IMG/VR virus record: IMGVR_UViG_3300029787_000194 | Location: 1 to 32,870 of that record | Reading direction: 5' to 3' (one strand) | DNA from: a virus | Length of the DNA stretch: 32,870 nucleotides | Shown here: positions 8,665 to 31,905 of the stretch, piece after piece | Position numbering within the stretch: the stretch's first letter is position 1 | Layout: the number at the start of each line of letters is the position of its first letter | Translations under genes and position numbers: made by a program | The notes under the pieces: model-generated | The model's input: the letters and a program-made list of their open reading frames with translations, nothing else | The model's database searches: none | What the model was told of the DNA's origin: nothing

Positions 8665-11243
8665 CAGTATCCCCGTTGACCAAATGTGCCTTCTGAGTTC
8701 TTTCTAAACAGATTGAACAAAGTTCCTTGTCTTCTGTATTCGTCGCCAACGAATCTATCAAAGTGCTTATAGGTTTCGACAATTCGCAGTGGTGCCATCA
8801 TCATCCCAAATGGAGAAAGCATTCCAGCGTTCATCGCCGCAATCCCCAACGGGCCAATGCTCGATGTTGCGGAGCGATTCAAAACGGCCTCCCCAGGAAG
8901 CAGTGTTGCCGATGTCTCGGACGGGTCTGACTCTGGGACGATACCACCACTGTGGAATGACAACTCTGCTTTGTTTGCTCTAGCCAACTGCACTGCTCCC
9001 AAAGCAGAAACCGCTGCAACTTGGGCTATCGCACCGGGGAGCGTCTTGGCTCTGGCTACTACACTCATTACTGCTGCAGCAGTGTTCGCAATAATCTCCG
9101 CAGAAGCAAGTGCTTTTGAGATCCTAAACGCCTCTTCTGCCTGTGCCATATTGTCTTCACCAAGAGCGTCAGCTTTTTCTTCAAAGACATCAGACAACGC
9201 GCCAGACAGTGCGCTAATGCCATCAATGTTTTCCTCAAAGACAGACTGTATTCGATCAGCACGATCTTGGGCAGCCTGCTCTTCCATGTCTGAAACTTCT
9301 TGATGGTGTTCGGCTATTATGCGCTCCATTTCATTAAGCCGATCAATGCGATCTTCCTGCACCTGCTGTGAGTAGATGTCGGCCTCTGCCGTCAACTGCT
9401 GTCGTTTTAGAAGGTCTTCTTCTTCTCTGGCCGCAACACGCATAGATATTAGCTGGAGGTTCTCTTCCGTCCGTACTGCGCTTTCAAGCACCTCTGTCCA
9501 GAAATCTGGAGCAAGATCTGCACTCTCTCTAAGCGCATCGTTGATACCCTCTAAGTCTTTCTCAAGATCTTCAAGGGCAGTCGCCTCTGCCCTTACCACC
9601 ATCGCATCATCAAGGCTTAAGCCTAATCTCTCTGCCTCTATTCGTATTTCTGCAATACGATCTCTGTACTGATCAATTCTTTGAATTCCATCAGACCCAA
9701 AAGCACTTTCCTCGTCTTGTATCTGCTCTTTAAGCAACAACAAGTATTCTCTTTGGTCTGCAATGAGTTCTTTGAGCACCACAGACTTGGCGTCATAGGC
9801 TGTCTTAGTCTTATCTATCTCTACTTCTAGATCCTCTAAAGCCTCTCCCTCTTCAATGGCCGCATCACGCTGTAATCGCATTACCTCGGTGTACAGTTCA
9901 CCCACATCTATGGCATCCAACGTGACCATGTTCACTGCGCCGTGAGCTTCAACCACACCATCCACCGTTCGCGTAATTGCAGAATACCGTTCGTCTTCGT
10001 GGCCCAACAGTTCGTTGAGTCGTTCCACAAGATCTGCTTGGCTTGCTACCGCAGCCGAGCCCTGACCAAAAATCCGATTGGTATCGGCAAAAGCTTCTCC
10101 GACTTGCCTTGCTTGACGAGTAGACATCCTCATGCCGTCTTCAAGCATCGTAAAGGCGCCAGTAGCCTCATTTGTAATGTGCCGAGTCATCCCCATAGAG
10201 GCATCCGTCAAGAATGCTAAATCTGAAGAGAAAAGACTCATTCCAATTCTGGTTCGCTCTACTTGTCGTCCTCGATCTTCGATTGCTTGTGCAAGATCTC
10301 TTTCGGTCTCAGCAAGCAGAATGTTTGCATCACTAACTTCTCTCGCAACCCTGAGAGCTTCTTCGTACTCTTCGGTAGTTTCTTCAAGTGTTTCAGCGAG
10401 CAAACGCTCAGCCTCGGCTGCCGTTTCAGCCGACTGTCGTCTCATGGCATCCCGCAGCGCAATGTTGCTGGAAAACCTGAAGGAAGCAGCTTCCCTTTCC
10501 GAAATTGCCCGCAGTTGCGCTGCAGCATTTTCTGCTTCTTCTCTTGCAATCTCTCGGTTTGCCCTGGCTTGTCTCAAGGCGTTGTTAAATATTTTCTCCT
10601 CTAAACTTATTCTTTGCTCATATGTCGCTGTTATCTGGTTTGTAACGCCAAGAGATTGGTTCAATGAATCAGTGTAGCCGTCTTGAAGCTGCCTGCCTCG
10701 GTTGATCAAACCAATCAACCTGTCGTAACTATTGCTTAGACTCTCATTGGCCTGCTCATACCTTTCAGCCTCTTCTCGCAAAGACTTGGTTGCCTGCTCA
10801 AAGACTAAAACAGTTCCGGCAATTACGGCTACCAATGTAGGAGCCTGACGAATTGCCAAAATTACCTGCTCCATACCACCGGCAACGTCTGCCGAAAGCC
10901 TGATCAGTTTGGCCATCTCTGGATTTATGTGATCTACTACTGCTGAAATTCCAGAAAGCGCGCTATCTGCTCGGCCTGCCTTGTCGGCAACGTCATCCCA
11001 AGCGTTTCCAGACTCTTCCACCTCGTCTTTTAGCTTTTTGACCGAATCTCCAGCCTTATCAACAGAGTCCTCTGTGTCCTTCATGGCCTTTTCGGCTTTC
11101 TTTCCGGTATCCTCAAAGCTACCAGAAACCCCGGCAAGAACCTTTTCAAGCGACTTAAGGTTGGCTGCGACTTTCTCTAATGCCTCAATCAATCCGCTGG
11201 AATCAGCGCCAATTCCAATCTCAATATTTTCACCAGACGACAT
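8664..11243 (-). CDS. Tail tape measure protein
   Basis: 859 residues with long charged coiled coils (about 150-680, rich in Glu, Arg, Ala), a hydrophobic segment near residues 130-150 (PTLVAVIAGTVLVF) and another near 700-750. The C-terminal FHSGGIVPE followed by ATLLPGEAVLNRSAT is the typical terminal signature of siphovirus tape measures. It follows the chaperone frameshift region, the canonical order. The ribosome site GGAG is 7 bases before ATG 11243. By the usual rule of thumb of about 0.15 nm per residue, the tail would be about 130 nm long; this is an inference. It overlaps the next gene by one base. Confidence 0.9.
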   Translation of the reverse strand: MSSGENIEIGIGADSSGLIEALEKVAANLKSLEKVLAGVSGSFEDTGKKAEKAMKDTEDSVDKAGDSVKKLKDEVEESGNAWDDVADKAGRADSALSGISAVVDHINPEMAKLIRLSADVAGGMEQVILAIRQAPTLVAVIAGTVLVFEQATKSLREEAERYEQANESLSNSYDRLIGLINRGRQLQDGYTDSLNQSLGVTNQITATYEQRISLEEKIFNNALRQARANREIAREEAENAAAQLRAISEREAASFRFSSNIALRDAMRRQSAETAAEAERLLAETLEETTEEYEEALRVAREVSDANILLAETERDLAQAIEDRGRQVERTRIGMSLFSSDLAFLTDASMGMTRHITNEATGAFTMLEDGMRMSTRQARQVGEAFADTNRIFGQGSAAVASQADLVERLNELLGHEDERYSAITRTVDGVVEAHGAVNMVTLDAIDVGELYTEVMRLQRDAAIEEGEALEDLEVEIDKTKTAYDAKSVVLKELIADQREYLLLLKEQIQDEESAFGSDGIQRIDQYRDRIAEIRIEAERLGLSLDDAMVVRAEATALEDLEKDLEGINDALRESADLAPDFWTEVLESAVRTEENLQLISMRVAAREEEDLLKRQQLTAEADIYSQQVQEDRIDRLNEMERIIAEHHQEVSDMEEQAAQDRADRIQSVFEENIDGISALSGALSDVFEEKADALGEDNMAQAEEAFRISKALASAEIIANTAAAVMSVVARAKTLPGAIAQVAAVSALGAVQLARANKAELSFHSGGIVPESDPSETSATLLPGEAVLNRSATSSIGPLGIAAMNAGMLSPFGMMMAPLRIVETYKHFDRFVGDEYRRQGTLFNLFRKNSEGTFGQRGY

Positions 11244-11254
11244 ATTCAGACTCC

Positions 11255-11503
11255 TTACGCACGATTATAGCGTGCCTGCGCTTTTTCCCACCGTCTTCGC
11301 TTCGACTGGTGCTCATTTCTTTGAGCTTGTTTCGGACTTTCGTTGTGCAACCGGAAATCAGCAAGGATCCTGAGCTTCATCGACTTTTCTAAACCGATAT
11401 ACCACCCAGGATCCTTCCCCCAAAACCGATCTATTGCAAAGGCTATGCGGTCTGCCGAGCCCCGGTCGCTACGGTAAAATCCTCTACCTCTACGATCTCC
11501 TCT
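11255..11503 (-). CDS. Tail assembly chaperone T-part (-1 frame extension)
   Basis: The -1 frame relative to the chaperone gene is open from a TGA at 11506-11504 to a TAA at 11257-11255, just before the tape measure ribosome site. The part past the upstream gene's stop (11445-11443) reads sensibly: AIDRFWGKDPGWYIGLEKS, then a basic helical tail ending QARYNRA. Size, position and frame match the lambda G/GT arrangement, where a small share of ribosomes shifts -1 to make the long form needed for tail assembly. No perfect X-XXY-YYZ heptamer is aligned; a TTTT at 11479-11476 (Phe codon) and a GGGG run at 11463-11460 are the candidate slip points. An internal ATG at 11380 could also start a 41-residue form. 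Confidence 0.75.
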   Translation of the reverse strand, partial: RGDRRGRGFYRSDRGSADRIAFAIDRFWGKDPGWYIGLEKSMKLRILADFRLHNESPKQAQRNEHQSKRRRWEKAQARYNRA

Positions 11504-11850
11504 TCAGCCATGAGTTCTTGGCCGCACCAATTAAGATACGCAGCACCAAGGTTTAGGACTGAAATCCATCTACCACCATTTTGACCAACCCAGTCGATGA
11601 CTTGGTTACCATAGGTGATAAAGTCTCTACTCCCGATGTCGTAAATAGGTGCGCTCTCACATGCTGGATTGCTGCGGTCGAGGCCGAGACCAATCGCCGC
11701 TGCCGACAGCTTAGAGAACACACGGGTGTCCACGCCACCCTTCTGCGCATCCGCAACAGCAAACCATAGATCTACTGCTGCGGATAGGCTGGAGGGAAAG
11801 ACTAAATCAATAGAGTTGTTACCAATCTTTAGTTTTTGCTCAAACATCAT
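11443..11850 (-). CDS. Tail assembly chaperone (G-like)
   Basis: 135 residues located between the tail tube gene and tape measure gene, the fixed place of lambda gpG-like chaperones. The sequence is a mixed alpha/beta cytoplasmic type with WFAVADAQKGG and an acidic C-terminus (AEEEIVEVEDF), where the -1 frameshift window lies. The short form ends at TAG 11445-11443; the long form would continue through the extension ending at 11255. It is expected to bind and keep the tape measure soluble while the tube polymerises. Function is assigned by position plus the frameshift architecture. Confidence 0.75.
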   Translation of the reverse strand: MMFEQKLKIGNNSIDLVFPSSLSAAVDLWFAVADAQKGGVDTRVFSKLSAAAIGLGLDRSNPACESAPIYDIGSRDFITYGNQVIDWVGQNGGRWISVLNLGAAYLNWCGQELMAEEEIVEVEDFTVATGARQTA

Positions 11851-11864
11851 TGCTCCTGTTCAAA

Positions 11865-12353
11865 TCAAGTAGGCTCAGTGTATGTGACTCCACCGTAGAT
11901 CTCAGCCGAGACGCTGATGGTGTCTGGGTCGCCCTCGCTGAAGCTCCAAGTGCAGAGGCACTTTGCAGCGGTCGCCCGGTGGTCGTTGGCATCACCGTGA
12001 GCCGTTCCTTCGACATCAAACTGAATGTCGATAAGGAATTGCTCATACCCAGTGCCACCAGCAGAAGTCAGACTAACAGGACCAGAGTTGTCCAAGAAGT
12101 CGATCAACGAACCAGCAGAGTTGTCATGAAACTCACGCATCATAACGGTGAAACTCAGGCTTGGAACTGGATCATCACCTTTACGTAAACCAACAATAGT
12201 TCCGCGATCTTTAATTACGATACGGTCTGCTTTGCTTCCGCCATCAAACGATAAATCACCGTTCTCATAGGCTACGACGTAGGTGTTTGAACCACCGTCC
12301 TTGAGGGTTATGGTTCCGTCTCTACGGACTTTGACAACGGTTGATTCAGCCAT
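11865..12353 (-). CDS. Major tail tube protein
   Basis: 162 residues, beta-rich, with a start like TVVKVRRDGTITLKDGG and an interior pattern (GDLSFDG, SLSFTVMMREF, CTWSFSEGDPDTISVSAEIYG) typical of siphovirus tail tube proteins: strands with a loop between and a closing strand after a Gly turn. It precedes the chaperone gene by 14 nt and follows the connector genes. It should polymerise into hexameric rings around the tape measure. The gene has its own spacing upstream (9 nt), compatible with a higher translation rate. Confidence 0.8.
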   Translation of the reverse strand: MAESTVVKVRRDGTITLKDGGSNTYVVAYENGDLSFDGGSKADRIVIKDRGTIVGLRKGDDPVPSLSFTVMMREFHDNSAGSLIDFLDNSGPVSLTSAGGTGYEQFLIDIQFDVEGTAHGDANDHRATAAKCLCTWSFSEGDPDTISVSAEIYGGVTYTEPT

Positions 12354-12362
12354 TTTGGTCTC

Positions 12363-12929
12363 CTATTCGATAATGGTAATGGTGCTGGTTGTAGAGGGTT
12401 TGGGTGTTCTGTTGACCTTGGGGGTGGTCTCAATCCCGGCTGCGGCAGCAGCTCTGATTTGCTGCTCCAACATTGGGATATATTTTGACTTTATCACGTC
12501 TACCACTTCTAGGTAGCGAGGGTTCGACTTGGACTGTCCGCTCAGGTGAACAAGACTAACATAAGGTCTGTTTCTATACTTCGCCGCTAATTCCGGTTTT
12601 CCTTGCTCGTCGTAGTACCTGGCCCGCCAATCAACAGCCTCGTTCTTAATGAGCAACACTGGTTTTCCGCTTCCCGTTTCAAACTCTTTTGTCCACCGAT
12701 TTATGGAAATATGCCGGTATGCAGTGGGCCTTGGTTTGAATGCGGGCCTGCCATCGACTGTTGCAAACAAATCTTTCTGATACTTCCATGGTGGATTCCA
12801 TATTTTTGTTGTCATTATCTCTTTAAGGATCTGTTCTCCGGTGTTGTTCATTATGTCGGCTATTTCTCGTTGTACAGATTCCTGAAACGTACTCCAATCA
12901 GGCGAATTAAACGTTAGCGATACCTTCAT
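12363..12929 (-). CDS. Neck/tail completion-type protein
   Basis: 188 residues, basic, alpha/beta, with a C-terminal helix (VIKSKYIPMLEQQIRAAAAAG) and a Thr/Pro-rich flexible tail. It overlaps the previous gene by 4 nt (ATGA) and lies between the capsid connectors and the tail tube gene, where head-closure, HK97-gp10-like or tail-completion proteins are found. The middle (AVDWRARYYDEQGKPELAAKY) does not match a motif I know. Role inferred from position. Confidence 0.5.
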   Translation of the reverse strand: MKVSLTFNSPDWSTFQESVQREIADIMNNTGEQILKEIMTTKIWNPPWKYQKDLFATVDGRPAFKPRPTAYRHISINRWTKEFETGSGKPVLLIKNEAVDWRARYYDEQGKPELAAKYRNRPYVSLVHLSGQSKSNPRYLEVVDVIKSKYIPMLEQQIRAAAAAGIETTPKVNRTPKPSTTSTITIIE

Positions 12930-13384
12930 GCTCCACCATTGCCATCTAAGAAGAATATTGGACCCGTGTCCTGACGATCTTCTCTCGATCTTTCGGTACG
13001 TTCAATCTCTTTCTTTAAGTCGGCAATTAAACCCGTCTTAAACTCGTTGAAAACCTCTGGAAGCAGATCTTGCCACAACGCCCTACCCAACCACCTCCAG
13101 TTTGATCTCTTTACACCTTTTGGGTGTACCCAGTCGGCATACCAAGCCTTGTTTTCTAAGTAGAATTTGGTGTCGCCTACTATTGATTCGTTTCGCCAAG
13201 TCCAGCGCACAATGGAATACCCGGTAAGTATGGGCCACTGGCTTTCGATGGCGAGCGTCATGTCGGATATGTACTGGTTAAGTATATTGCTCTCTTGTAT
13301 CGTCAGGCCACGATAAGAACCGTGCTTTCGCTTGATGAAGCGATCAATGGATTGCAGTTTTATCTCGGCAGAGACTTCGCCCAT
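12926..13384 (-). CDS. Putative HK97 gp10-like / head-tail joining protein
   Basis: 152 residues. The pattern of an N-terminal helix, then PILTGYSIVRWTWRNES, then NKAWYADWVHPKG and a terminal amphipathic helix resembles the minor tail/neck proteins of the HK97 gp10 class: a Thr-Gly near the first strand, an aromatic region around AxYADWVHxxG and a long C-terminal helix. It overlaps both neighbours by 1-4 nt. Likely part of the neck or of the tail end facing the head. Confidence 0.5.
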   Translation of the reverse strand: MGEVSAEIKLQSIDRFIKRKHGSYRGLTIQESNILNQYISDMTLAIESQWPILTGYSIVRWTWRNESIVGDTKFYLENKAWYADWVHPKGVKRSNWRWLGRALWQDLLPEVFNEFKTGLIADLKKEIERTERSREDRQDTGPIFFLDGNGGA

Positions 13385-13821
13385 CAGATCACCATGGACA
13401 AATTGTATACAACATCCAGGGTGAAGCGTTGAATGTAATAAGCCCCACCTGAACCATATTCAGATGATGAAGGGCCGACCGAGATGGCGCCCTTTTGCGT
13501 CAGAGAAGTTCCGCTAACGTCGAGATACTTGATTGCCTTATGCAGGTCTTGCAAAGCCTGGGATATCGCAGTCTGCCCACTATTGGGATTGATTCGATGA
13601 CCAAGTTCGATTTGAAAACGATTCGACACACGCAACCCAGCGACGGTTGGCTTGAACCGATCAGGATTCGGGGCTGGACCAAGACTGGACATCTTCACAG
13701 AAAACGATCTATTCATCTGTGGAGCAGAAGAGTTGGAGACACCAAGAGGGCTCACCGCCTTGGTTAGTCCCGCTGCCTCCAGTCTTGCAATGATGGCAGT
13801 AAGTGCGGTGTCGGGGGTCAT
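13384..13821 (-). CDS. Putative tail terminator
   Basis: 145 residues. An N-terminal helix (TALTAIIARLEAAG), strands ending in RFQIELGHRI, a helix QALQDLHKAIKYLD and a last strand pair (YYIQRFTLDVVYNL) give the alpha/beta order seen in tail terminators. Position between adaptor and tail tube gene agrees. It would cap the tail tube and join it to the head. Starts at ATG 13821 overlapping the upstream stop by one base. Confidence 0.55.
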   Translation of the reverse strand: MTPDTALTAIIARLEAAGLTKAVSPLGVSNSSAPQMNRSFSVKMSSLGPAPNPDRFKPTVAGLRVSNRFQIELGHRINPNSGQTAISQALQDLHKAIKYLDVSGTSLTQKGAISVGPSSSEYGSGGAYYIQRFTLDVVYNLSMVI

Positions 13822-14573
13822 TAGTAGTTCCGTCTGCTTCGATTTCGCCTATAGCTTAACGGGGAAAGATAAGTAACGGCAGGCACCGACTGTTGCCTAT
13901 CGCTCAACTGGTTGTCTTCATCGGAATCAATCCGACTTCTCAACTTGGAATATGCCCGCTCATATTGCTGCTCGTAGTAATCCGAAAGGTGCATGTACCG
14001 ATCACCAGCATTTAGCAGCGTAGCGTAGTCTCGGAAAATCAGCGACAAGGAGCGGGCGAACATGACGCTTCTAAATGCACTCGGAGTCCGAAGTCGCCAG
14101 AAGTAACTTTGCTCAGAGTACATACGGTTCGTCACGTCACTCCACGCATCGTCGATGTACTGCTGGCAACTGGTAACACCGGAAGCCAAAAGGTTCGCCA
14201 CATCTGAATGGCGATTCACCAAATCTGTCTGACCAATGGGCGGGTAGAGTCTCGCAACACACAAACACGCATCGTTGTTGAAGCGATACGTCTTGCCACC
14301 AATCACAACATCAAATCTAACGAGCCAGGATGGTCCCAGGGTCTTTCCGCTGGTATCTGCGGCAGCAACGGTCCCAGATACGGTTCCCCCGCTCTCTGTG
14401 GCCGTCTGACCGTCGATGATGAGGTTTCCCCCTGCATCGTATAGGTAAAACTTTGCCGATGCCACAGTGGGCGCAGAGCCCGCCTGTTCAAGTGCTACTG
14501 ATACGGTCTGTGATTTGTTGTGCTCGATAAGGGTAGGCCCCCGAAAACGGGCACTGTATAAGGTATCCGACAC
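13821..14573 (-). CDS. Head-tail adaptor-like protein with N-terminal beta domain
   Basis: 250 residues in two parts. Residues 1-105 form a beta, Ig-like stretch (QTVSVALEQAGSAPTV, then AKFYLYDAGGNLIIDG). Residues 110-215 are helical with CQQYIDDAWSDVTNRM, then RSLSLIFRDYATLLNAGDRY and YYEQQYERAYSKLRSRIDSD, the helix-rich layout of ring-forming head completion adaptors. The basic C-terminus (YRRNRSRRNY) could contact DNA at the portal. Fusion of a beta domain with an adaptor is somewhat unusual. Assignment is from layout and position only. Confidence 0.5.
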   Translation of the reverse strand: MSDTLYSARFRGPTLIEHNKSQTVSVALEQAGSAPTVASAKFYLYDAGGNLIIDGQTATESGGTVSGTVAAADTSGKTLGPSWLVRFDVVIGGKTYRFNNDACLCVARLYPPIGQTDLVNRHSDVANLLASGVTSCQQYIDDAWSDVTNRMYSEQSYFWRLRTPSAFRSVMFARSLSLIFRDYATLLNAGDRYMHLSDYYEQQYERAYSKLRSRIDSDEDNQLSDRQQSVPAVTYLSPLSYRRNRSRRNY

Positions 14574-14589
14574 GGGAGCCTCCTATCGA

Positions 14590-14958
14590 TTAGCTGATGG
14601 CACCAGAGATCATGAAGAACAAGGACCACCCGGAAGCAGCACCTGCGGCAACATCGTCCGATGCATAAATGATTGCGTAGTCATTTTGGCTGACTTGGCA
14701 AACCTGAGTAGAACCGTCAGGTTGTGTAAGCACAAGCACTTCTGCTGCATCAGATTTGTTCGCAATGTGGTAGAAGTGACCCTTGATCGAACCACTTGGA
14801 AGGTGGATGTTTCGACTGTCTCCGCCACAATCAAGAGCTTGCATCTGCGCGTCCTTGAGTGTGAGGGTCTTGTCGCCTGCAAGAGTCTCTGCGTTCCAGC
14901 CACCTGGGTAGCGAACTGGGCGTGGGATCTTGAATGGGTTTGAACCTTTAAATGCCAT
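14590..14958 (-). CDS. Small head decoration-like structural protein
   Basis: 122 residues, beta-rich and compact. It begins MAFKGSNPFKIPRPVRYPGG and ends in a hydrophobic strand (SGWSLFFMISGAIS). It lies in the head region two genes downstream of the capsid gene and has a good ribosome site (AGGAGG, rc of 14963-14968). Composition and position suggest a capsid decoration or head-fibre base protein. Family not recognised with certainty. Confidence 0.55.
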   Translation of the reverse strand: MAFKGSNPFKIPRPVRYPGGWNAETLAGDKTLTLKDAQMQALDCGGDSRNIHLPSGSIKGHFYHIANKSDAAEVLVLTQPDGSTQVCQVSQNDYAIIYASDDVAAGAASGWSLFFMISGAIS

Positions 14959-14997
14959 TTCATCCTCCTATGGATATTCCCGGCATGGGATTAAAGT

Positions 14998-15141
14998 CTA
15001 CTTCTTATCAGCCCGTCTGTCTGCACGTACTGCACACTCGACAGCCTTTGCTTTAGCTTTCTTGGGATCTACACCGTTTTGGACCATGTGTTTGGCCATT
15101 CGGTTGATCTGATCTCTTCTTCCGTCTCGTTCGCCACTCAT
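14998..15141 (-). CDS. 47-residue basic protein
   Basis: ATG 15141-15139 follows the stop of the 232-residue gene by two bases. The frame reads MSGERDGRRDQINRMAKHM, then helix-forming AKAKAVECAVRADRRADKK and a TAG at 15000-14998. It fills an otherwise empty 180-base gap in a tightly packed operon, has the same strand, and shows a credible helix-turn-helix composition. A virion or assembly helper is likely; the family is unknown. Confidence 0.7.
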   Translation of the reverse strand: MSGERDGRRDQINRMAKHMVQNGVDPKKAKAKAVECAVRADRRADKK

Positions 15142-15143
15142 GA

Positions 15144-15842
15144 TCAATCCCTCAACGGATCAGCAGAACGCTTGCGGCTTGCCTTGGGCTTACCCTTGAC
15201 TGCTTTTAGCTTCTCTTTCTGCATATCGGCCCAACAAGCTTTCATGTCCTTAAGCTTGCTAACTTCGTTGTCGTATTTGTCCTGAAGATGCGGATTCCGA
15301 TTCAGCTTTGCGCCGATCCTTTCGGTGCGAGTGACTTGCTTGGCCAAAAGCATCTGATAGATTTCTGGGATCAATGGATTAAGGATTCCAGAATCCCTCA
15401 AATGACTTCTGAACCCGTTCCACGCGCCCTCTTTGCTGTCCCAGATAATTTCGCCATCAGGAAGAACGGTCGCTTCAGAGCAAAAGTCGCAATACCACTT
15501 CGCACCGTTTTCGCAGTCGTAGTATTGAACGTACCCCTCATACTCGCCAAGGCGATTATCGGTTGGGTCAATGTATGTTCCGCCCTTTTGCGCGACACCC
15601 ACAATAACCGGTGTGAGGTCTCCCCTCGCGCCAACTCCATTGCAGCCGGGAACCGCGACTACCTTCTTGGGGATCGGAAGAAACCCCCACTCTAATCCGG
15701 CAAACTCCCAGGATTTAGCGTAATGAACGTACACAAACCGCTTTCCAATTTTTGTATTTTTGCGTACTGGAAGTCCGTTTGTTTGCTTTATGTGTGCTTT
15801 CTCACGCTTGGGTTGGGTGAGGCGCATTGTTGATTGCTGCAT
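15144..15842 (-). CDS. Conserved-looking head-region protein, function unknown
   Basis: 232 residues. Middle part has Cys pairs (CENGAKWYCDFCSEATVLPDG, about residues 112-132) that could bind a metal, followed by WDSKEGAWNGFRSHL and a Lys/Arg-rich C-terminus (KGKPKASRKRSADPLRD). It is the first gene after the capsid terminator, so transcription past that terminator is probably reduced. It has a ribosome site AGGAG. Possibly a minor head protein or a DNA-binding internal protein; I do not recognise a family. Confidence 0.6.
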   Translation of the reverse strand: MQQSTMRLTQPKREKAHIKQTNGLPVRKNTKIGKRFVYVHYAKSWEFAGLEWGFLPIPKKVVAVPGCNGVGARGDLTPVIVGVAQKGGTYIDPTDNRLGEYEGYVQYYDCENGAKWYCDFCSEATVLPDGEIIWDSKEGAWNGFRSHLRDSGILNPLIPEIYQMLLAKQVTRTERIGAKLNRNPHLQDKYDNEVSKLKDMKACWADMQKEKLKAVKGKPKASRKRSADPLRD

Positions 15843-15853
15843 GTCTGCTCCTA

Positions 15854-15889
15854 AGAAAAAGGGATCCCCCCGAAATCAGGAGGATCCCC
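15854..15889 (-). terminator. Rho-independent terminator after capsid gene
   Basis: On the minus strand GGGGATCCTCC and GGGGGGATCCC form an 11-bp stem (one wobble) with a 7-nt loop, followed by TTTTTCTT. It starts about 12 bases after the capsid stop. A leaky terminator here would raise capsid mRNA above downstream connector and tail mRNA. Confidence 0.85.
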
Positions 15890-15901
15890 AGTTTGTTTTA
15901 A

Positions 15902-16822
15902 TCACACGTCAGAGACGATCTCTACACCGCGAGCATCTTCAGCCTCGACAACCGATGGATACATGTTGGCAATGCAAGTGCTCATGGCATTGCTTGCATC
16001 ACGCTCAAGCTCGACGAGAACTTCATTGGCATCCACGAGGATATTGTCCTCTGGGATGTAGCTCTGAAGCGCACGAACTGGAGCCATTGTGTAGGCAAAG
16101 CATCCATCAACGAACATGGCGCCACTGTAATCGGCTCCAGCGTTAATTGTGTCTACGCTATCGCTCTGGTAGAACCGGATACCCAGGAAATCACCTTGGT
16201 AGCCAGGACCACGAGTCTGCAGGGTCTCAGCAGTTGCTTCGCGGAACTGAATAGCACCCGTCTCACCGCGAAGTGCGGAACGGAAGTCATTCATCTGAGC
16301 AGCCTGAAGCACGGCAGTGTATGGCCCGGACGCATTGGCTGTATTGAGTTGAAACAGCGCATCGTAGATGGTGTCCACATCAAGGTCCACGCCAGTAGTT
16401 CCAACAGAGTTAGAAAGGCTGTTGAACAAGTTGCAGAGAAGCTCAGTCATGGTCAGACCGGCACCCTCGACAAGTTTATTCACAACTCGGTCGATATCGA
16501 TAGGACCACCAGTGATTCCAAACAGGTCGGTCACTTGGTATTGACGGGCATAGCGGGACACGTTCAGCGTGAACTTGCTTGTGTCGTAGTCGCTGTTTGT
16601 GATTCCACCCACAAGCTCCGAAGTAGCAGGAGCGAAAACCCCAGGCTTTCCGTCAATCGTTACATCCATCTTGTCGGAACCAACAGCGTTCCAAGGAATC
16701 AGCGTCATTACGCTGCGGAGATCGGTGCTGTCATACAACTGTTGACGCACAAGGGCAGAAAGAACTTGAGTTACTCGACCGCCGTTCGCCAGCAGGTCAG
16801 CATATGAGACTTCATTGGCCAT
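15902..16822 (-). CDS. Major capsid protein (HK97 fold inferred)
   Basis: 306 residues. It follows the scaffold gene and is followed by a terminator, as usual for the most abundant virion protein. The N-terminal helix (YADLLANGGRVTQVLSALVRQQLYDS), a beta stretch around GKPGVFAPATSELVGG, a helix at DIDRVVNKLVEGAGLTMTELLCNL and the late LGIRFYQSDSV segment fit HK97-type coat proteins. No N-terminal delta domain is visible, in line with a separate scaffold gene upstream. A 104-base untranslated leader separates it from the scaffold gene; it holds a small CGACA/TGTCG hairpin and a TTGACA (16930-16925), possibly an extra promoter but without a good -10. Confidence 0.85.
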   Translation of the reverse strand: MANEVSYADLLANGGRVTQVLSALVRQQLYDSTDLRSVMTLIPWNAVGSDKMDVTIDGKPGVFAPATSELVGGITNSDYDTSKFTLNVSRYARQYQVTDLFGITGGPIDIDRVVNKLVEGAGLTMTELLCNLFNSLSNSVGTTGVDLDVDTIYDALFQLNTANASGPYTAVLQAAQMNDFRSALRGETGAIQFREATAETLQTRGPGYQGDFLGIRFYQSDSVDTINAGADYSGAMFVDGCFAYTMAPVRALQSYIPEDNILVDANEVLVELERDASNAMSTCIANMYPSVVEAEDARGVEIVSDV

Positions 16823-16926
16823 GGTAATAGGCTCCCAATAATAGTAGTGAAGAAATGATTTTCGACACCCACTGTCGGGGGGCGTTACCGATACAGTACA
16901 AGGCTATCTCTTGACGCTACACCCTG

Positions 16927-17535
16927 TCAAACAGAAGGGCCTTTGATTAAGCCCTCTGCGGCAAGTGCTTTTAAGATTGCGTCTTTGGATGCTCCAAGAC
17001 CAACCCCCCTGTTGCGCGCCATCGCTGCCTTGATGTCATCGGAAGACCACGTTGTTCCGTTGTTGCGAACCGGCTGATCTGTACCCGCATTTGGGTTGCC
17101 CTTCAGCTCCACTGCGGGAGCGGGTTTTTCTTCGACCTTTGGCTCTACCTTAATTTCAGATTTGGTCTCAGTTTTTTCTTCTTTGGCCTTCAAGAATGGC
17201 GCAAGTAGCGGTGACGGGCTCTTTTGCTGGCCTTCCATCCACGATGCAAAGTCCTTTGCGTCCTTGGCCTTGCCAAAACGCTCTCTTACAAACTCCCGAA
17301 CCTCTGGATCGATGATTCCAGCAGAGATCAATGCAATATCTTGTTCATGAACCGATGAAGTGGTGTCAAGCCTGGTGTGGGCCTCGGCCAAAGCGGTCTT
17401 CAGACCCTTCACTTCCTCAAGAATCTTCGATAATTGATCCTCCGCTTTCCTCCTCTTCTCCGATTCCTCTCTCAGCCGGTAACTCGGTACCGTCCCCGAC
17501 GAGTTCTGAGTCTCCTCTTTCGTTTCTTCGCTCAT
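16927..17535 (-). CDS. Capsid scaffolding protein
   Basis: 202 residues from the ATG at 17535, which has AGGGTG at a 6-base spacing; ATG 17541 and GTG 17544 are alternatives. The N-terminus (VPSYRLREESEKRRKAEDQL) is the common opening of siphovirus scaffolds, followed by a coiled coil (ILEEVKGLKTALAEAHTRL), an acidic/Lys/Pro-rich linker and a basic C-terminal helical domain (SKDAILKALAAEGLIKG) of the kind that binds coat. It overlaps the portal gene end by 119 nt in another frame. Expected to guide procapsid assembly and then leave. Confidence 0.85.
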   Translation of the reverse strand: MSEETKEETQNSSGTVPSYRLREESEKRRKAEDQLSKILEEVKGLKTALAEAHTRLDTTSSVHEQDIALISAGIIDPEVREFVRERFGKAKDAKDFASWMEGQQKSPSPLLAPFLKAKEEKTETKSEIKVEPKVEEKPAPAVELKGNPNAGTDQPVRNNGTTWSSDDIKAAMARNRGVGLGASKDAILKALAAEGLIKGPSV

Positions 17536-19000
17536 TTTCATCACCCTGTGTCGCTGGTGTTGCGGTTTGTGGAGCTTCTTTGCTCCGGTTCAAAATCTTA
17601 GTCATGCGATCGATATCAATAAGTCTACGAACAGCCTCTTCATCAGTATCTACGCCGGTATTTAAGCGCCGGTAGGCATCCACGCGGGAGATCAGTCCCA
17701 TCTCTAGCTCTGCTTTGATAACTTCAGTGTGCGTCTTGCGCTCTTCAGCAGAAGTGCCCACATTTGAGTATTCAATACGGTAATCCCCAGGCTCTTCCGG
17801 CAAGTTTGGAGACGGCATTGCGTAAGCGTTCGCCATCTTCGCAGCTTTAGCCAGGATGCGCTGATCAGCCATGCGTCTCGCCGGTTCTGTACGCTTCTGC
17901 TGAGCCCGTTTTCCTTGGTTGGACACTACGATGGCATAACCTGACTGCCCCTGGGTCAACTGCAGGTCGCTTGGGTTTAATCCGGCGTACACCGCAAGGC
18001 CCTTCTCGTACATTCTGAGCGATTCCGCAGCGGTCCGGGGGTCCATAGCCGCCGAATACTGCCCAAGAACAGCGCCGGTAGGCCCATCGGACTTAAATCG
18101 CAAGATTGACTTGTGATCTGTGGGAATCACTTCAACATTGTGACCAGAATAGTGCCGAGTGATGCCTGCCTGTGTCGATACGTCAACCGCATAGCGTTGT
18201 GGATGCGATGCGGAAGTGAACCCGTCACCCCAGTGGGTCCACAGAGCAGCGAGGCGAAGCGACCCGGCAACGAGTTCTGCGCCCGTATGGTATGACCACA
18301 GTTGAGGAGCTATCTCGGCGTGAATCAGCTCGTAAGGTAAGATTGGATTGCCCTCGCGATCCATGTACGGGTATTCTCCCGCAAGATCGGGGGCGAACTG
18401 TGGGGTCACGTCTTTCCAGACATCCCCAACCATGGTCAAGATCTTGAATATGGGCGTGGGAGACATGATGTCCCAAACCTCTTTCGTCCAGACCTCTTCA
18501 CCGGCAGCAGTGTGCCGCAAGCGGACCTCTGAAACATACCCAGGAACATCTGGCTGGTCTGGCATTGCCCGACAGACCACCAAGTCGGGAGACACCGGAC
18601 GATATCGAACCGTCTTACCACCCGGAACCCAGTCGAGGCGGAACAAAGACTCTCTGATTGCCTGCGCCCAGAAGTCAGCCGTCTGACGTTGGGGCCAAAG
18701 CCGGTGCGTAATGACCGACGACATATCCGGACTTAGACCGTCCTTCAGTGTAACCATTGGCGCGTCAAGATAGGCATTGCATAGTTGCTGCCAAACCATT
18801 CTAAACGTATTGCGCGATAAGTCAGGATTAACCTCCAGTTCCATGGAGATCTCCGCAGCAAACATGCCGCGTATTTCCTCGATTACATCATCGCGCTGTT
18901 GCCCCGTCAACATCCGATAGCGAAGGCTCTGCACATCCCAACGAGCAACGTCCTCATCGGACTGTGGCATGTAGTCACTTGGAATGTCGTATGCGCTCAT
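17417..19000 (-). CDS. Portal protein
   Basis: 527 residues. Location between TerL and scaffold, size and composition fit a siphovirus portal. Features include a helical N-terminal part (VARWDVQSLRYRMLTGQQRDD), a wing/stem region with DLAGEYPYMDREGNPILPYELIH and later GLNPSDLQLTQGQSGYAIVVSN, typical of SPP1/HK97-like portals, and an acidic, flexible C-terminus (EEEESGGSIIEDS) that is the part overlapped by the scaffold gene. The dodecameric ring at one vertex takes the terminase and later the adaptor. Confidence 0.85.
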   Translation of the reverse strand: MSAYDIPSDYMPQSDEDVARWDVQSLRYRMLTGQQRDDVIEEIRGMFAAEISMELEVNPDLSRNTFRMVWQQLCNAYLDAPMVTLKDGLSPDMSSVITHRLWPQRQTADFWAQAIRESLFRLDWVPGGKTVRYRPVSPDLVVCRAMPDQPDVPGYVSEVRLRHTAAGEEVWTKEVWDIMSPTPIFKILTMVGDVWKDVTPQFAPDLAGEYPYMDREGNPILPYELIHAEIAPQLWSYHTGAELVAGSLRLAALWTHWGDGFTSASHPQRYAVDVSTQAGITRHYSGHNVEVIPTDHKSILRFKSDGPTGAVLGQYSAAMDPRTAAESLRMYEKGLAVYAGLNPSDLQLTQGQSGYAIVVSNQGKRAQQKRTEPARRMADQRILAKAAKMANAYAMPSPNLPEEPGDYRIEYSNVGTSAEERKTHTEVIKAELEMGLISRVDAYRRLNTGVDTDEEAVRRLIDIDRMTKILNRSKEAPQTATPATQGDENERRNERGDSELVGDGTELPAERGIGEEEESGGSIIEDS

Positions 19001-19010
19001 TTGTTCCCCG

Positions 19011-20414
19011 CTATCCGATTAGCATAAGCCCTGGGCCCTTGTTTCCGCTGGGCGCCAGGAATATTTCTGAGATGTATCCGCACGAATCGAAGGCATCTTT
19101 GAGATCATCATTGGCACCACGCCAATGTCGCAAAGAGTGGATCAACTTGGCGCAACTCTTATGTACTCTGAATCGACCATCGACACAAGCAGAGGATAAC
19201 ATACGAACGCGAGCATCGATCGAACCCCGGCGTTTGTAGGGAACCCGAATGTCAAATGGGGGCGTGGATGCGCCACAAATTTTGGCAAATTCCCTCATAT
19301 AAAGGTCATTTAGGCTGAATCCCATGCCCATCTTGCCCGCTGAGTTGCTATCTCCTCTTGATTCGTCAACATCAGAGGGCTCTATCCCCCACCCTCTCAG
19401 CATTTCGGTGATGGCTCTGGCCTCGGATGCGGGGGTCGAGAGTTCGTCATCACAATGCTCATCGAGAACCCAAAGAGTAAGGCCATCCCAAGCAACAAGG
19501 TGGCAGACCGACTTGCCTGGGCGGACGCCATGGTCGAATCCGAGCCCGATCGACTGAATATTCTGCGGAATATCGTCATCATCGAACAGATTACCCTCCG
19601 AAAACCCAGAAACCCAGCGATCTTTGGTCAGACCTTCCCACTGAGCCAGTATTCGTTGGTTGTATTCCCACGGTGAGCACTCCAACTTCTGCGCTTCGAT
19701 GTCTTCTTCCGACCGATGCGGAGCATTGTGCTTAGAAAGCTCGATATGCTCGACATGCCAACCGGGTTCGGGCTCAACATTGTCCTCTACAGAACCCTCC
19801 AACATGTGCTGCAGCCAACCCACCGGTCTACCCACAGGCGTGAGTGTCATCCAGTAGGGCGCCATATCCATCGTGAGTCGCGCACGGAGACCATGCCAGT
19901 GGCTTTCCTTGGGCGGCTCATCAATCCACGCCCACTGGACCCTTTTTGATTCCAGCGCGAGTAGCGACTGCTCGCACCCTTTGCCAACCATCTGGCTACC
20001 ATTGATGGTTCGCAAGATCTTCTGGCTTCGATACAGATACCCAATACCCGGAACGTACTTACACGAGTCATCCAGCACCCCTGGTGGTTCCAGTTCGTGC
20101 AAGACTTCCGAAATCGTCTCCCAACCAGTCCGCAGATCAGAACACAAAACCCAGCCAGTGGAACCGGGTTGGGGTACTTCGCGGTAGGGGTGGTCCGAGA
20201 GAAGGTGAAACCATGCCTCTGCTGCTCCCCAGTAAGTTTTCCCTACCTTATTTGCAGCAATAAACGCCCTTTTTCTATTTTGGGACATGTGAAATCGCTT
20301 CTGCGGTGGTGACATTCCTCCTCTTGGACCCGGCTCTTCCCCACAATACCGTGCAAGCCCATTACGCTCATAAGAACGCGCCGTATTGATAATAAAAGCC
20401 GCAGGATCGAACAT
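19011..20414 (-). CDS. terL: Terminase large subunit
   Basis: 467 residues. The ATPase half shows a Walker A-like AANKVGKT (residues 53-60), a Walker B WAWIDEPP (161-168) and a coupling-type LTPVG (191-195). The C-terminal nuclease half has an RNase H-like strand GLGFDHG (Asp about 294) and a second acidic site near DVDESRGDSN (about 348-356). It drives DNA packaging through the portal and cuts concatemers. It overlaps the 106-residue basic gene by one base. The start is set by this TAATG-type junction. Confidence 0.92.
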   Translation of the reverse strand: MFDPAAFIINTARSYERNGLARYCGEEPGPRGGMSPPQKRFHMSQNRKRAFIAANKVGKTYWGAAEAWFHLLSDHPYREVPQPGSTGWVLCSDLRTGWETISEVLHELEPPGVLDDSCKYVPGIGYLYRSQKILRTINGSQMVGKGCEQSLLALESKRVQWAWIDEPPKESHWHGLRARLTMDMAPYWMTLTPVGRPVGWLQHMLEGSVEDNVEPEPGWHVEHIELSKHNAPHRSEEDIEAQKLECSPWEYNQRILAQWEGLTKDRWVSGFSEGNLFDDDDIPQNIQSIGLGFDHGVRPGKSVCHLVAWDGLTLWVLDEHCDDELSTPASEARAITEMLRGWGIEPSDVDESRGDSNSAGKMGMGFSLNDLYMREFAKICGASTPPFDIRVPYKRRGSIDARVRMLSSACVDGRFRVHKSCAKLIHSLRHWRGANDDLKDAFDSCGYISEIFLAPSGNKGPGLMLIG

Positions 20415-21463: not shown

Positions 21464-21475
21464 TTGACGTGTCAA
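21464..21475. promoter_or_regulatory. Inverted repeat TTGAC-GT-GTCAA next to late start
   Basis: A perfect 5+5 bp inverted repeat 14 bases before the first late ATG, overlapping a TTGACA on the minus strand. It may be an operator or part of a promoter; the TATAAA just downstream is too close to serve as its -10 in the standard sense. Confidence 0.35.
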
Positions 21476-21690: not shown

Positions 21691-21943
21691 TTTTTGGTTT
21701 CGGCATGAACGATCGGTTCTCGTTCCTCATCTCCCTGAAATCCAAACCATAAGCAAACCAGACCCAAACCCCCGCAATCACTACAGATCCCCACTACCAT
21801 CCAGGCACCAAAGATCCGGAGCTTGATAACGATCTACAGTGACCCGGATCCGTTGCTCCCCTGTTCTACCCTGTGCCAACCTTGGGCCAGTGTGCTAACC
21901 TTGTGCCAACCTTAGACCAGCTGATAACACTCGTACAAACTGC

Positions 21944-21973
21944 AATATAGGCCAGCTGTGCTAACCTTTCCAA
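21944..21973 (-). promoter_or_regulatory. Candidate leftward promoter with repeat in spacer
   Basis: On the minus strand TTGGAA (21973-21968), an 18-base spacer containing AGGTTAGCACA, then TATATT (21949-21944). The match to sigma70 boxes is 4/6 and 5/6. If used, binding at the repeat in the spacer would control it. Weak; no start site is known. Confidence 0.3.
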
Positions 21974-21980
21974 GTTTTGC

Positions 21981-22053
21981 CCTATATAGATGTATAAACG
22001 CCCCACTACATGATCACTCATGATCATATACATAATTTAATTCTATATAGAGA
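21981..22053. other. AT-rich dyad with paired CATGATCA sites, origin-like
   Basis: Between the inverted TGTGCTAACCTT elements lies a symmetric region: CTATATAGAT (from 21982), CATGATCA at 22009-22016 and 22019-22026 (10-bp step, same face of the helix), AT-rich ATACATAATTTAATT, then CTATATAGAGAT (22043-22054). The layout could be a replication origin or the operator of a divergent switch. Confidence 0.4.
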
Positions 22054-22170
22054 TAAAGGTTAGCACCATAGCACAGCTACCGGGTATTGTACTTTCAACC
22101 TTGGATATCGTCTGCTCCATCGATAGCACAGGGTTAGCACAAGATGGCACAGGTAAACCGTGCTTATCTT

Positions 22171-22201
22171 TCTACACTTTGTGCGCTCCGCACATTATAA
22201 T
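22171..22201 (+). promoter_or_regulatory. Rightward early promoter with internal operator
   Basis: A perfect -10 TATAAT at 22196-22201 is preceded by an exact inverted repeat TGTGCG-CTC-CGCACA (22180-22094 orientation, 22180 to 22094+100, i.e. 22180-22194) that fills the spacer. A poor -35 (TCTACA, 22171-22176) fits at 19 bases. A repressor on the repeat would block polymerase. This is the best candidate promoter for the small-gene block. Confidence 0.55.
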
Positions 22202-22576: not shown

Positions 22577-22726
22577 ATGACAACGATCGCAACATTCTAC
22601 ACTCAGTTCGAAGCGCTCCAATTCATAGATACGTCAGAAAGCCGGGGAATCAATACCGATAGCTGGATCATAGATCGGGGCATGGACTGTAAATTCCACG
22701 TGATCGATACGGATGGTGAGCGATGA
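22577..22726 (+). CDS. 49-residue soluble small protein
   Basis: ATG 22577 to TGA 22726. The sequence begins MTTIATFYTQFEALQFIDTS and ends CKFHVIDTDGER, with alternating strand/helix character and no TM segment. Its stop overlaps the next start (ATGA), which is the main evidence that it is translated; SD-like GGGGG lies 7 bases upstream. Family not recognised. Confidence 0.6.
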   Translation: MTTIATFYTQFEALQFIDTSESRGINTDSWIIDRGMDCKFHVIDTDGER

Positions 22727-25676: not shown

Positions 25677-25689
25677 CTGCTTATATGGT

Positions 25690-25878
25690 AGGTTGTACCT
25701 GCATTATCACAATATCGACACGGTATAGCATGACAGGCAATGGATGATATCATAGGTTGAACCTACACTATGGACCGATAGCCGAAAAGGTAGTTTGTAC
25801 CTGCATTATCAGCGACCGGACGAAAAGGTAGGTTGAAACTGGCTTATGGAGCACCCGACGAGAAGGCAGGTTGAACCT
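25690..25878. repeat. Palindromic iteron array AGGTTGAACCT, 38-bp period
   Basis: Five copies of the palindrome-like AGGTTGAACCT: 25690-25700 (AGGTTGTACCT), 25754-25764, 25792-25802 (AGTTTGTACCT), 25830-25840 (AGGTTGAAACT) and 25868-25878. The last four start exactly 38 bp apart; their flanks share GGTAGGTTG and CATTATC/CTTATGG. A sixth diverged copy is at 26049-26059 (AGGTTCAAACT). The AT-rich tract follows. Array plus AT-rich DNA next to the replication genes fits a replication origin, or a multi-site operator for the second early operon. Confidence 0.8.
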
Positions 25879-25921
25879 GGCATATCGAGGAGGCCAAAAA
25901 AATCGAAAAAAAGGGCGAAAA

Positions 25922-25981
25922 TGGTGTTGTCTATTAGAGCAAATTGGACCGAAATTGACGAAAATTGGTGTTGTCTATAAG
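25922..25981 (+). promoter_or_regulatory. Twin TGGTGTTGTCTAT elements, promoter-like
   Basis: TGGTGTTGTCTAT at 25922-25934 and 25966-25978, 44 bp apart, with related TGTTGTCTATAAG strings later inside coding sequence (26474-, 27428-). The second copy gives TATAAG at 25976-25981, with TTGACG at 25955-25960 (15-base spacing). Might be promoters for the replication genes; the spacing is short for sigma70. Confidence 0.4.
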
Positions 25982-26021
25982 GAAAATTTGCGATTCGCAG
26001 CGCACTTTTGGTAAATAAATT

Positions 26022-26035
26022 TTGATTTAGATCAA
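26022..26035. promoter_or_regulatory. FNR/Anr-type box TTGATTTAGATCAA
   Basis: Exact match to the TTGAT-N4-ATCAA consensus of FNR/CRP-family oxygen regulators, in a noncoding AT-rich stretch. Its centre lies about 38 bases before a possible -10 TATCAT (26064-26069), near the position where such activators work. It could also arise by chance in AT-rich DNA. Confidence 0.4.
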
Positions 26036-26148
26036 TATTTTATTATCAAGGTTCAAACTTTCTTATCATCGAACCAATAAAGAAAGTGTTTGACGCGCAC
26101 CGCATAGTGATTAAGTATGTGCTGAGCAACAACCCAGGAGCAATGACT

Positions 26149-26709
26149 ATGAGCACCAACCCTACCGTATTGGATCTATCGGACTGCATAGATCGGTGGA
26201 GAGCGAAGGGCTACGCACCGTATGTAGCCATCAACGCGCCGCACCCAAAGTATCGAAACGAAGTACAGGCTACCTTTGAGCATATGGCAAAGGATATTAT
26301 TGGTAGCTGGTGCGATGACTCGGCACGATGCAACGTTTGGCCAGAATCCATCGACGATCCTAACTTTACAAGGGTCGAAATACTGACAGAATGGCAGACC
26401 GACACCACTCCGTACCGGTTCAGCATCAATGTACCCGGTCTGGAGGTCGATGACCTATGGTGGATGCTCAATGAGAGTGTTGTCTATAAGCACACAAAAG
26501 ACGTAGAAATAGATTTCGGGCCTGGATCCTTCCAAGAAATAACCGGAGAGCTTGAAGTTGAAGCTCAAGTTCTTGGGGCAACGAAGATCAACGGTGGTCT
26601 GCAGGTCCACATGGTCATCTACCATTTCAGAGATGGTGTAAGCGGAGACAGTTGGGGTGACACTGTTGAGGGCGGCTTCGCACACTGGAAACACAAGGGG
26701 AAGTCATGA
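26149..26709 (+). CDS. First gene of replication operon, unknown function
   Basis: 186 residues from ATG 26149 (AGGAG 8 bases upstream); ATG 26143 and the far ATG at 26086 are less well placed. Soluble, acidic, mixed fold: CIDRWRAKGYAPYVAINAPH, then EVDDLWWMLNESVVYKH and a C-terminal GGLQVHMVIYHFRDGVSGDS. No catalytic motif recognised. It is separated from the iteron region by about 270 bases and coupled to the XRE regulator gene by an ATGA overlap. Confidence 0.7.
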   Translation: MSTNPTVLDLSDCIDRWRAKGYAPYVAINAPHPKYRNEVQATFEHMAKDIIGSWCDDSARCNVWPESIDDPNFTRVEILTEWQTDTTPYRFSINVPGLEVDDLWWMLNESVVYKHTKDVEIDFGPGSFQEITGELEVEAQVLGATKINGGLQVHMVIYHFRDGVSGDSWGDTVEGGFAHWKHKGKS

Positions 26710-26975
26710 GTTTGAGCTTTGGTGCAAAGAAGATTGGTATGAACGCAATCATGGGGTCCAGATATATAAACCCAAAGAAGTTGCGATTGGACCTTGGACT
26801 CAGCCGTAGACAAGTTGGGGAGAGAATTAACGTCTCTCAGTCTACTGTAGCGGGTTGGGAGAACCGTAGGCGCATACCCAACGTTATCGACGTGTGGAAG
26901 CTGGCAGGAGCACTCGGTATCGTACAGCAAAACATAGGGAAGCTCGTAGCCTATTGGGCATTGGTGGACGATTGA
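26706..26975 (+). CDS. XRE-family helix-turn-helix regulator
   Basis: 89 residues. A lambda-repressor-like HTH occupies about residues 20-75 (LRLDLGLSRRQVGERINVSQ, then STVAGWENRRRIPNVIDVWK): the SRRQVGERINVSQSTVAGWE pattern is the recognition helix pair of XRE proteins. It has no dimerisation domain beyond the short C-terminus. Candidate regulator of the iteron region or of the divergent region; the exact operator is unknown. Confidence 0.8.
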   Translation: MSLSFGAKKIGMNAIMGSRYINPKKLRLDLGLSRRQVGERINVSQSTVAGWENRRRIPNVIDVWKLAGALGIVQQNIGKLVAYWALVDD

Positions 26976-30639: not shown

Positions 30640-31905
30640 ATGGAGTTGAATAAGATTGCTGAAATCTGCAAAGTTAAAACTGACGGTTGGGAACCAATCG
30701 TTTGGGACACTTTGGAGCGAAAGAAAGACCAAGTAGATCGAGATGGAAACATCAAGTCTCATGGCAAGCCGTACCCAAAGATCAGCAATGCGGTGAAGAT
30801 ATTATTGAATGACAGCCGGTGGGACGGAAGGATCCGGTACAACGAGTTTAAGAGTACGGTTGATGTTGATGAGGCAGAAATCATTGACGAAAACGAGACC
30901 GGAATGGCATTGTGGCTCGATCGTGTCTACGGTCTGGCAATGCCTACCAACAAAGTTGCAGAAGCGGTCCGATACGTTGCGCGAAGAAACACCTTTCATC
31001 CGGTCAGGGAGTATCTTGACAGTCTTCAATGGGACATGAAACCCCGGACAGGAAATCTCTTTGAGAAGTATTTTGGCGCGGGCGAGAACGACTTGTACCA
31101 AGAACTTGGAAAGCGATGGATGATCGGGATGGTTGCGCGGATCTTTGACCCTGGCTGTAAAAACGACTGCGTCGTAATTTTGTCTGGACCCCAAGGAATT
31201 ATGAAGAGCACGGCGCTCAAGACGATGGCGGTCAATGATGAGTGGTTCAGCGACTCTGCTCTCGACATGCGTTCAAAGGATGCGTATCAAGCATTGAGTG
31301 GAGGGATCTGGATTTACGAGTTGGCAGAGCTTGCCTCGATTCGACCCAGAGAGGCGGAGACGGTCAAAGCTTTCTTAAGCTCAAGGCAGGACAGATTCCG
31401 TCCGTCTTACGGTAGAAACATGGTCACCCGAAAGCGGCAGACCATATTTGCAGGAACAACGAACGAAGCCGAGTTTCTTTCGGACAACACCGGTAACCGT
31501 AGATGGCATGTCATTAAGTGCGGTTTGATAAACATTCCCAAGCTCCATGGCGATATTGATCAGCTATGGGCAGAAGCGGTCCACCAGTACAAGTCCAATG
31601 AGAGATGGTGGCTTGATGCGAACGCCTCATATGAGTTGGAGGAGTATCAGCAGCAGTTTCGTCAGCAGGATTCCTGGGAGCATGCGATTGCTCAATGGTT
31701 ATCCAGAAAGACTGGTCCGTTTACCGTCTGGGAAGTTTTGGAGAAGGCGATTGGCAAAGAAGCCCAGAACCATAGCAAGTCAGACTGCATGCGTGCTGCT
31801 GCGATACTTAGAAGTTTAGACTGTGAGAAGGGGGGTAGAACCCGGCTGGATGGCAAGCAAGTGTACCCATGGGTGAAGAAGGGGTACAAGAAACCATCAG
31901 ATTAA
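30640..31905 (+). CDS. VapE/VirE-like ATPase-helicase
   Basis: 421 residues. Walker A GPQGIMKST (183-191), Walker B IWIYELAEL (223-231), sensor FAGTTNE (270-276) and TGNRRWH (284-290) are the hallmarks of the virulence-associated E family of SF3-like ATPases. The N-terminal 120 residues are not an AEP primase domain, so the priming activity of larger relatives is absent. Role inferred: replicative helicase/initiation factor acting with the zinc-ribbon protein and host primase. ATG 30640 has GAGG upstream. Last gene of the rightward operon. Confidence 0.88.
   Translation: MELNKIAEICKVKTDGWEPIVWDTLERKKDQVDRDGNIKSHGKPYPKISNAVKILLNDSRWDGRIRYNEFKSTVDVDEAEIIDENETGMALWLDRVYGLAMPTNKVAEAVRYVARRNTFHPVREYLDSLQWDMKPRTGNLFEKYFGAGENDLYQELGKRWMIGMVARIFDPGCKNDCVVILSGPQGIMKSTALKTMAVNDEWFSDSALDMRSKDAYQALSGGIWIYELAELASIRPREAETVKAFLSSRQDRFRPSYGRNMVTRKRQTIFAGTTNEAEFLSDNTGNRRWHVIKCGLINIPKLHGDIDQLWAEAVHQYKSNERWWLDANASYELEEYQQQFRQQDSWEHAIAQWLSRKTGPFTVWEVLEKAIGKEAQNHSKSDCMRAAAILRSLDCEKGGRTRLDGKQVYPWVKKGYKKPSD

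Follow-up and report, generated by a model that had tools for sequence, protein, structure and literature searches.

The window (W) analysed here, positions 1-32,870 of record IMGVR_UViG_3300029787_000194, is an uncultured tailed-phage genome. Judged by eye, the late genes, which lie on the minus strand, include those for tape-measure-, portal-, major-capsid- and terminase-like proteins. For the terminase this assignment has support from tblastn, which matches phage terminases; the large terminase reaches only about 26% identity, to Arthrobacter phages. A left early operon (22.4-25.6 kb, plus strand) is followed by an array of dyad repeats and then by a replication operon encoding gene A, an XRE protein, RusA, a methyltransferase, a primase-like protein, Erf, SSB and a VapE helicase. 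A nucleotide search of public phage records with W returned no match, and nine proteins of the late region (3665-20414, minus strand, including the terminase-, portal- and capsid-like ones) had no PHROG match at an E-value of 1e-3. The array and the replication operon comprise the following features:

25681-25709, plus strand: array dyad 1 (centre 25695), TTATATGGTAGGTTGTACCTGCATTATCA
25745-25773, plus strand: array dyad 2 (centre 25759), from the repeat scan and the 29-bp matrix
25783-25811, plus strand: array dyad 3 (centre 25797), 38 bp past dyad 2
25821-25849, plus strand: array dyad 4 (centre 25835), 38 bp past dyad 3
25859-25887, plus strand: array dyad 5 (centre 25873), 38 bp past dyad 4
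25970-26069, no strand: AT-rich unstable stretch between the array and the distal dyad, the latter of which it overlaps (nearest-neighbour stability scan)
26040-26068, no strand: distal dyad, centred at 26054 and 181 bp beyond dyad 5
26090-26117, plus strand: putative replication-operon promoter, TTGACG-N16-TAAGTA, proposed from conservation
26149-26709, plus strand: gene A, 186 aa, pI 4.8, the first gene after the array, matching no known family
26706-26975, plus strand: XRE/HTH_3 protein, 89 aa, pI 10.7, candidate dyad-binding regulator
30640-31905, plus strand: VapE-like (PF05272) helicase, candidate initiator and alternative dyad binder

The relatives compared with W include the sister phages S (IMGVR_UViG_3300030329_002906; L007/L013/L014) and T (IMGVR_UViG_3300030376_006369; L020/L102), and the more distant G014 (IMGVR_UViG_3300029787_000247; L111/L113/L114). 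S is colinear with W along most of its length. Its ends (1-133 and 32929-33052) share ~124 bases that differ at few positions and in the number of repeats, and its genome is probably circular or terminally redundant, with a circle of about 32.93 kb.

An earlier note, made from the sequence of W alone, had reported five, possibly six, copies of a palindromic repeat, the last four of the main group exactly 38 bp apart, directly before an AT-rich tract and the replication operon. All of the copies were recovered: AGGTTNAACCT starts at 25690, 25754, 25792, 25830 and 25868 (span 25690-25878) and a sixth time at 26049, with successive spacings of 64, 38, 38, 38 and 181 bp. The palindrome core described there is real but shorter than the full repeat unit, a 29-bp bipartite dyad, CGAAAAGGTAGGTTnAACCTnnATTATCG, whose outer arms GAWAA/TTATC (+/-10 to 13) are constrained equally with the inner AGGTT/AACCT. 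Across all 20 array copies in W, S and T, no variation occurs at positions -12, -10, -5, -4, -2, +2, +10 and +12. The shared flanks noted earlier were a partial view, as the right flank CATTATC is exact in just two copies. The first dyad carries a variant, TATGGTAGGTTGTACCTG, that is also the first array copy of T.

The repeats stand far above background. With up to two mismatches AGGTTGAACCT matches W 23 times, against 8.5 +/- 3.0 in dinucleotide shuffles, which never reached 23, and TRF likewise calls the 38-bp tandem repeat. A 29-bp matrix trained solely on S and T scores the five array copies of W at 30-36 bits; 100 shuffled sequences of genome length reach 19.7 at most. In the search among related phages that had been suggested, the array was present in both sisters at the same place, ahead of the replication operon: S has eleven dyads (spacings 40, 38 x 8 and 40) and T has four (36, 37 and 35). 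A strict 38-bp pitch is not universal. That the copy number ranges from 4 to 11 while the pitch stays nearly the same speaks for a functional array and not for a remnant. The array is therefore real and conserved, and it looks functional; what it does we infer from sequence comparison.

Searching all viral contigs for the array pattern and the paired second motif (described below) returned sister S alone, and a generic array scan of ~80 distant VapE loci revealed nothing evidently comparable upstream of replication genes, its matches having by eye the appearance of coding or low-complexity repeats. Other repeats lie upstream of the sister arrays: about seven copies of TCGAACACC plus GCACGAACCGTGCC repeats in S (L007 67-127 and 161-255), which W lacks, and TCCTCGGG repeats in T (L020 5820-5966), of which W has none.

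The centre of the distal dyad lies 36 bp (W), 37 bp (S) or 35 bp (T) upstream of a TTGACGCG block, and the last array copy is separated from the distal dyad by 181 bp in W, 181 bp in S and 219 bp in T. As TTGNCGCG, this block is conserved ahead of the replication operon in all three phages, where it resembles the -35 element of the putative replication promoter. The AT-rich tract of the earlier note corresponds to a low-stability stretch, 25970-26069, which ranks as the second least stable 100 bp of W and contains its least stable 60 bp (26006-26065); DNA between the array and the distal dyad is among the least stable in S and T as well.

A second group of dyads, new in this analysis, was found in the intergenic DNA that separates the left early operon from the late one:

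21922-21950, no strand: second-site dyad A (centre 21936), TGATAACACTCGTACAAACTGCAATATAG, found with the array-dyad matrix
21962-22061, no strand: least stable 100 bp of W, between dyads A and B
22082-22110, no strand: second-site dyad B (centre 22096), GGGTATTGTACTTTCAACCTTGGATATCG, with TATAAT 100 bp downstream
22182-22201, plus strand: left early promoter core, TGCGCTCCGCA and then TATAAT at 22196, assigned by sequence and leader conservation

For this site a matrix was built from array dyads only, with genomes weighted equally, and run on this intergenic region in seven phages. The two best matches lie 148-192 bp apart in all seven (21936 and 22096 in W), and in six of them both members of the pair beat all 400 dinucleotide shuffles; the pair of S is weak (p 0.13 and 0.02). 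In six of the seven phages the 80 bp of lowest stability in the region lies between the two pair members, and in W, S and T the second-site segment is the least stable 100 bp of the sequence examined, with the array region second. The putative left early promoter is of a conserved type, GCGCnnnGCGC-TATAAT, and the inner pair member is 87-100 bp upstream of its -10 element in W, T, L103, L107, L108 and L110. Other motifs occur in this neighbourhood: inverted motifs surround the AT-rich segment, GTGCTAACC / GGTTAGCAC in W (21860-22170) and GTGTTCTAACC in L110 (480-1450). Upstream of the leftward late operon, near 21465 in W, a palindrome TTGACGTGTCAA is conserved in W, T, L103, L108 and L110; S and L107 carry variants of it.

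A second motif, TGTTGTCTATWAG, is present on the plus strand only, in 4-5 copies per phage in W, S and T. In W it starts at 25925, 25969, 26478, 27039 and 27425, the last two each with one mismatch, and two copies fall between the array and the distal dyad:

25925-25937, plus strand: second motif copy 1, TGTTGTCTATTAG
25969-25981, plus strand: second motif copy 2, TGTTGTCTATAAG

These paired copies are 44 bp (W), 24 bp (S) and 65 bp (T) apart, or about 4.2, 2.3 and 6.2 helical turns, and so keep the same phase. One copy lies inside gene A, where the codons GTT GTC TAT are identical despite 32% protein identity, which suggests constraint at the DNA level. By analogy, the motif is reminiscent of oriented stoperator-like sites.

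Two relatives bear on whether the dyads follow the replication genes. The left early module of S is inverted. This places the module's promoter, identified by the leader, at 32876 (minus strand), where it diverges from the replication promoter and is ~340 bp away from the array; of the three arrays that of S is the longest, and the S dyad pair at the old second site is degenerate. G014 keeps VapE (46-47% identical), RusA (57%), XRE (about 33%), the primase-like gene and TerL (69%), and has neither gene A nor the left early operon; no dyad above background was found in it, and no tandem repeats in its replication region. From the inversion in S and the absences in G014 we conclude that the dyads follow the early promoters and not the replication genes, an argument that draws on a single inversion and one distant genome. 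Alternatively, the XRE protein of G014 may have another specificity. The earlier note had held that loss of the repeats from close relatives keeping the replication genes would count against its reading; such loss is seen only in the distant G014 and not in the close S and T. Just 3' of VapE, at 18610-18800, where an origin of the PICI type would sit, G014 has its least stable DNA with GGAC repeats on both sides. Taking these repeats as PICI-like iterons was rejected, as their 4-mer enrichment is not significant across all 4-mers (84 of 500 shuffles), and a stability minimum 3' of VapE was likewise dropped as a general rule, being found at just 7 of 36 loci.

Among the early proteins scanned, the strongly basic XRE protein is the only one with a clear helix-turn-helix. 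It is 75% identical in S and T, versus about 32% for gene A among W, S and T, and a search of 84,980 prokaryote genomes returned no relatives of it and hence pointed to no host or prophage. Proteins of the XRE/CI type usually bind two half-sites, ~10 bp apart, inside a target of 14-20 bp, and the 29-bp dyad, whose inner arms are 7 bp apart, would be an unusual target for the family. The VapE helicase, matched by 645 phage-collection records, has a predicted structure that resembles SaPI PriRep1 (7pds) along almost all of its length (TM 0.74, E 1.4e-25), and its C-terminal part (345-421) has a pI of 9.6. No close relatives of gene A were found in viral contigs, and its model (mean pLDDT 67, moderate to low confidence) gave no credible fold match. 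The left-early protein at 22723 was set aside as a binder; it is acidic and has no sign of a helix-turn-helix by eye. A host protein may also be the binder.

Taken together, these results suggest that the array is probably a cooperative operator array for early control and possibly an origin as well; that the dyads are the operators of one DNA-binding protein controlling early transcription we consider an even bet. One protein, probably phage-encoded and probably dimeric, would recognise the 29-bp dyad through half-sites of about CGAWAAnGTAGGTT and load cooperatively along the 4-11 dyads upstream of the replication operon. A nucleoprotein complex spanning the AT-rich stretch would then join array and distal dyad and determine how active the replication promoter is, by repression or by activation, and the same protein would act at the putative left early promoter through the second dyad pair flanking another AT-rich stretch. 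The first candidate for this protein is the XRE protein (26706-26975) and the second is the C-terminal domain of the VapE helicase. Operators are favoured by the presence of dyads at the other early promoter, the fixed distance of the distal dyad and the absence of dyads from G014; the far stronger conservation of XRE than of its neighbour gene A points the same way. One site is indeed found at two or more early promoters, these being assigned by conservation only, and the conserved XRE/HTH_3 protein, a candidate binder, may be the phage-encoded regulator. Against operators, eleven 29-bp dyads are many for an operator.

The main alternative is a replication origin, in which an initiator, either the PriRep1-like VapE helicase or another protein, would bind the dyads as iterons and the AT-rich stretch would melt, helped open by outward transcription of the replication operon; we regard this as possible, at somewhat over a one-in-three chance. 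It agrees with the tandem dyads and AT-rich DNA directly before the RusA, primase-like, Erf, SSB and VapE operon, with the low stability of the array-to-distal-dyad stretch in W, S and T, and with the PriRep1-like, putatively self-loading initiator helicase that W encodes, as judged by family and predicted fold. SaPI-type Rep helicases bind iterons through their C-terminal domain (PMC7581432), PICI origins have an AT-rich region flanked by two iteron sets (PMC6092414, Fig. 2 legend), and in lambda the iterons bound by O dimers are inverted repeats (PMC5043065). The layouts in W are array, AT-rich stretch and single distal dyad, and at the second site a pair around AT-rich DNA, built of dyads and not of short iterons. 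The repeats are tandem, share a consensus and adjoin AT-rich DNA, as iterons would, although AT-richness is expected of promoters anyway. Plasmid iterons are usually spaced in helical phase (PMC5043065), whereas the pitch of 35-38 bp (38, 36, 37, 35) amounts to about 3.3-3.6 turns, nearly half-integral. Moreover, the identical dyad type recurs at another promoter region, and G014 retains the helicase and primase-like genes without dyads. GC skew at fourfold sites, one of the checks proposed earlier, has no step at the array, where it carries no signal and is uninformative. No evident iteron or AT-rich site was found immediately 3' of VapE in W and S, where a PriRep-type origin would be expected; with nothing PICI-like there, the origin probably has another location, for which the array and the second site offer the best candidates.

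A combined scheme, in which one protein reads the dyad at both sites, each surrounding DNA that melts readily, and so couples replication initiation to early transcription, appears unlikely, and with it the idea that such a two-site origin/control system replaced the 3'-of-helicase origin of related PriRep/VapE elements. We think it highly improbable that the array is the partition centromere of an extrachromosomal prophage, its dyads being bound by a small adaptor protein: partition sites typically have tandem arrays ahead of an operon, and the S genome closes as a circle, but PHROGs and Pfam scans of the early proteins tested returned no ParA-, ParM- or TubZ-type gene. A packaging (pac/cos) site read by the small terminase subunit is scarcely credible; the second dyad pair is close to terS, ~0.5-0.7 kb from where the leftward late operon starts, but the array is >4 kb from terS and G014 has terminase genes (TerL 69%) without dyads. 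The earlier note had offered an origin or a cooperative operator set. The array itself, its conservation and its position ahead of the replication operon are upheld, and several results now favour operators; with an origin still a possible function, the label 'iteron' given to the repeats is premature. Operators are preferred over a pure origin mainly because the dyads track the early promoters.

Looking forward, the dyads provide a defined, testable site (29 bp, at two loci, with 4-11 array copies) for uncultured siphovirus-like phages whose regulation has so far gone undescribed. If they form an origin, they would show how phages with VapE/PriRep-like helicases, of which there are many, site their origins at a distance from that gene; if they are operators, they would expose a common early switch.

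Each known system resembles W in part. The lambda origin, like W, combines tandem dyad sites with adjoining AT-rich DNA in the early replication region; in contrast to it, the array of W is intergenic and upstream of the operon, with 29-bp dyads at a 35-38 bp pitch in 4-11 copies, no O-like protein was found in W, and its dyads also occur at a second locus. PICI/SaPI PriRep origins share with W an encoded helicase of the PriRep1 fold and AT-rich DNA flanked by sites. They sit 3' of the helicase gene, whereas the sites of W do not and are long dyads at two loci per genome in place of short iterons. Lambda OL/OR and the repressor/stoperator systems of cluster A mycobacteriophages have, as W does, one specificity at more than one early promoter and a helix-turn-helix protein encoded nearby; W differs from them in the long tandem array at one site, in its longer, bipartite dyad, and in having a regulator that is a candidate only.
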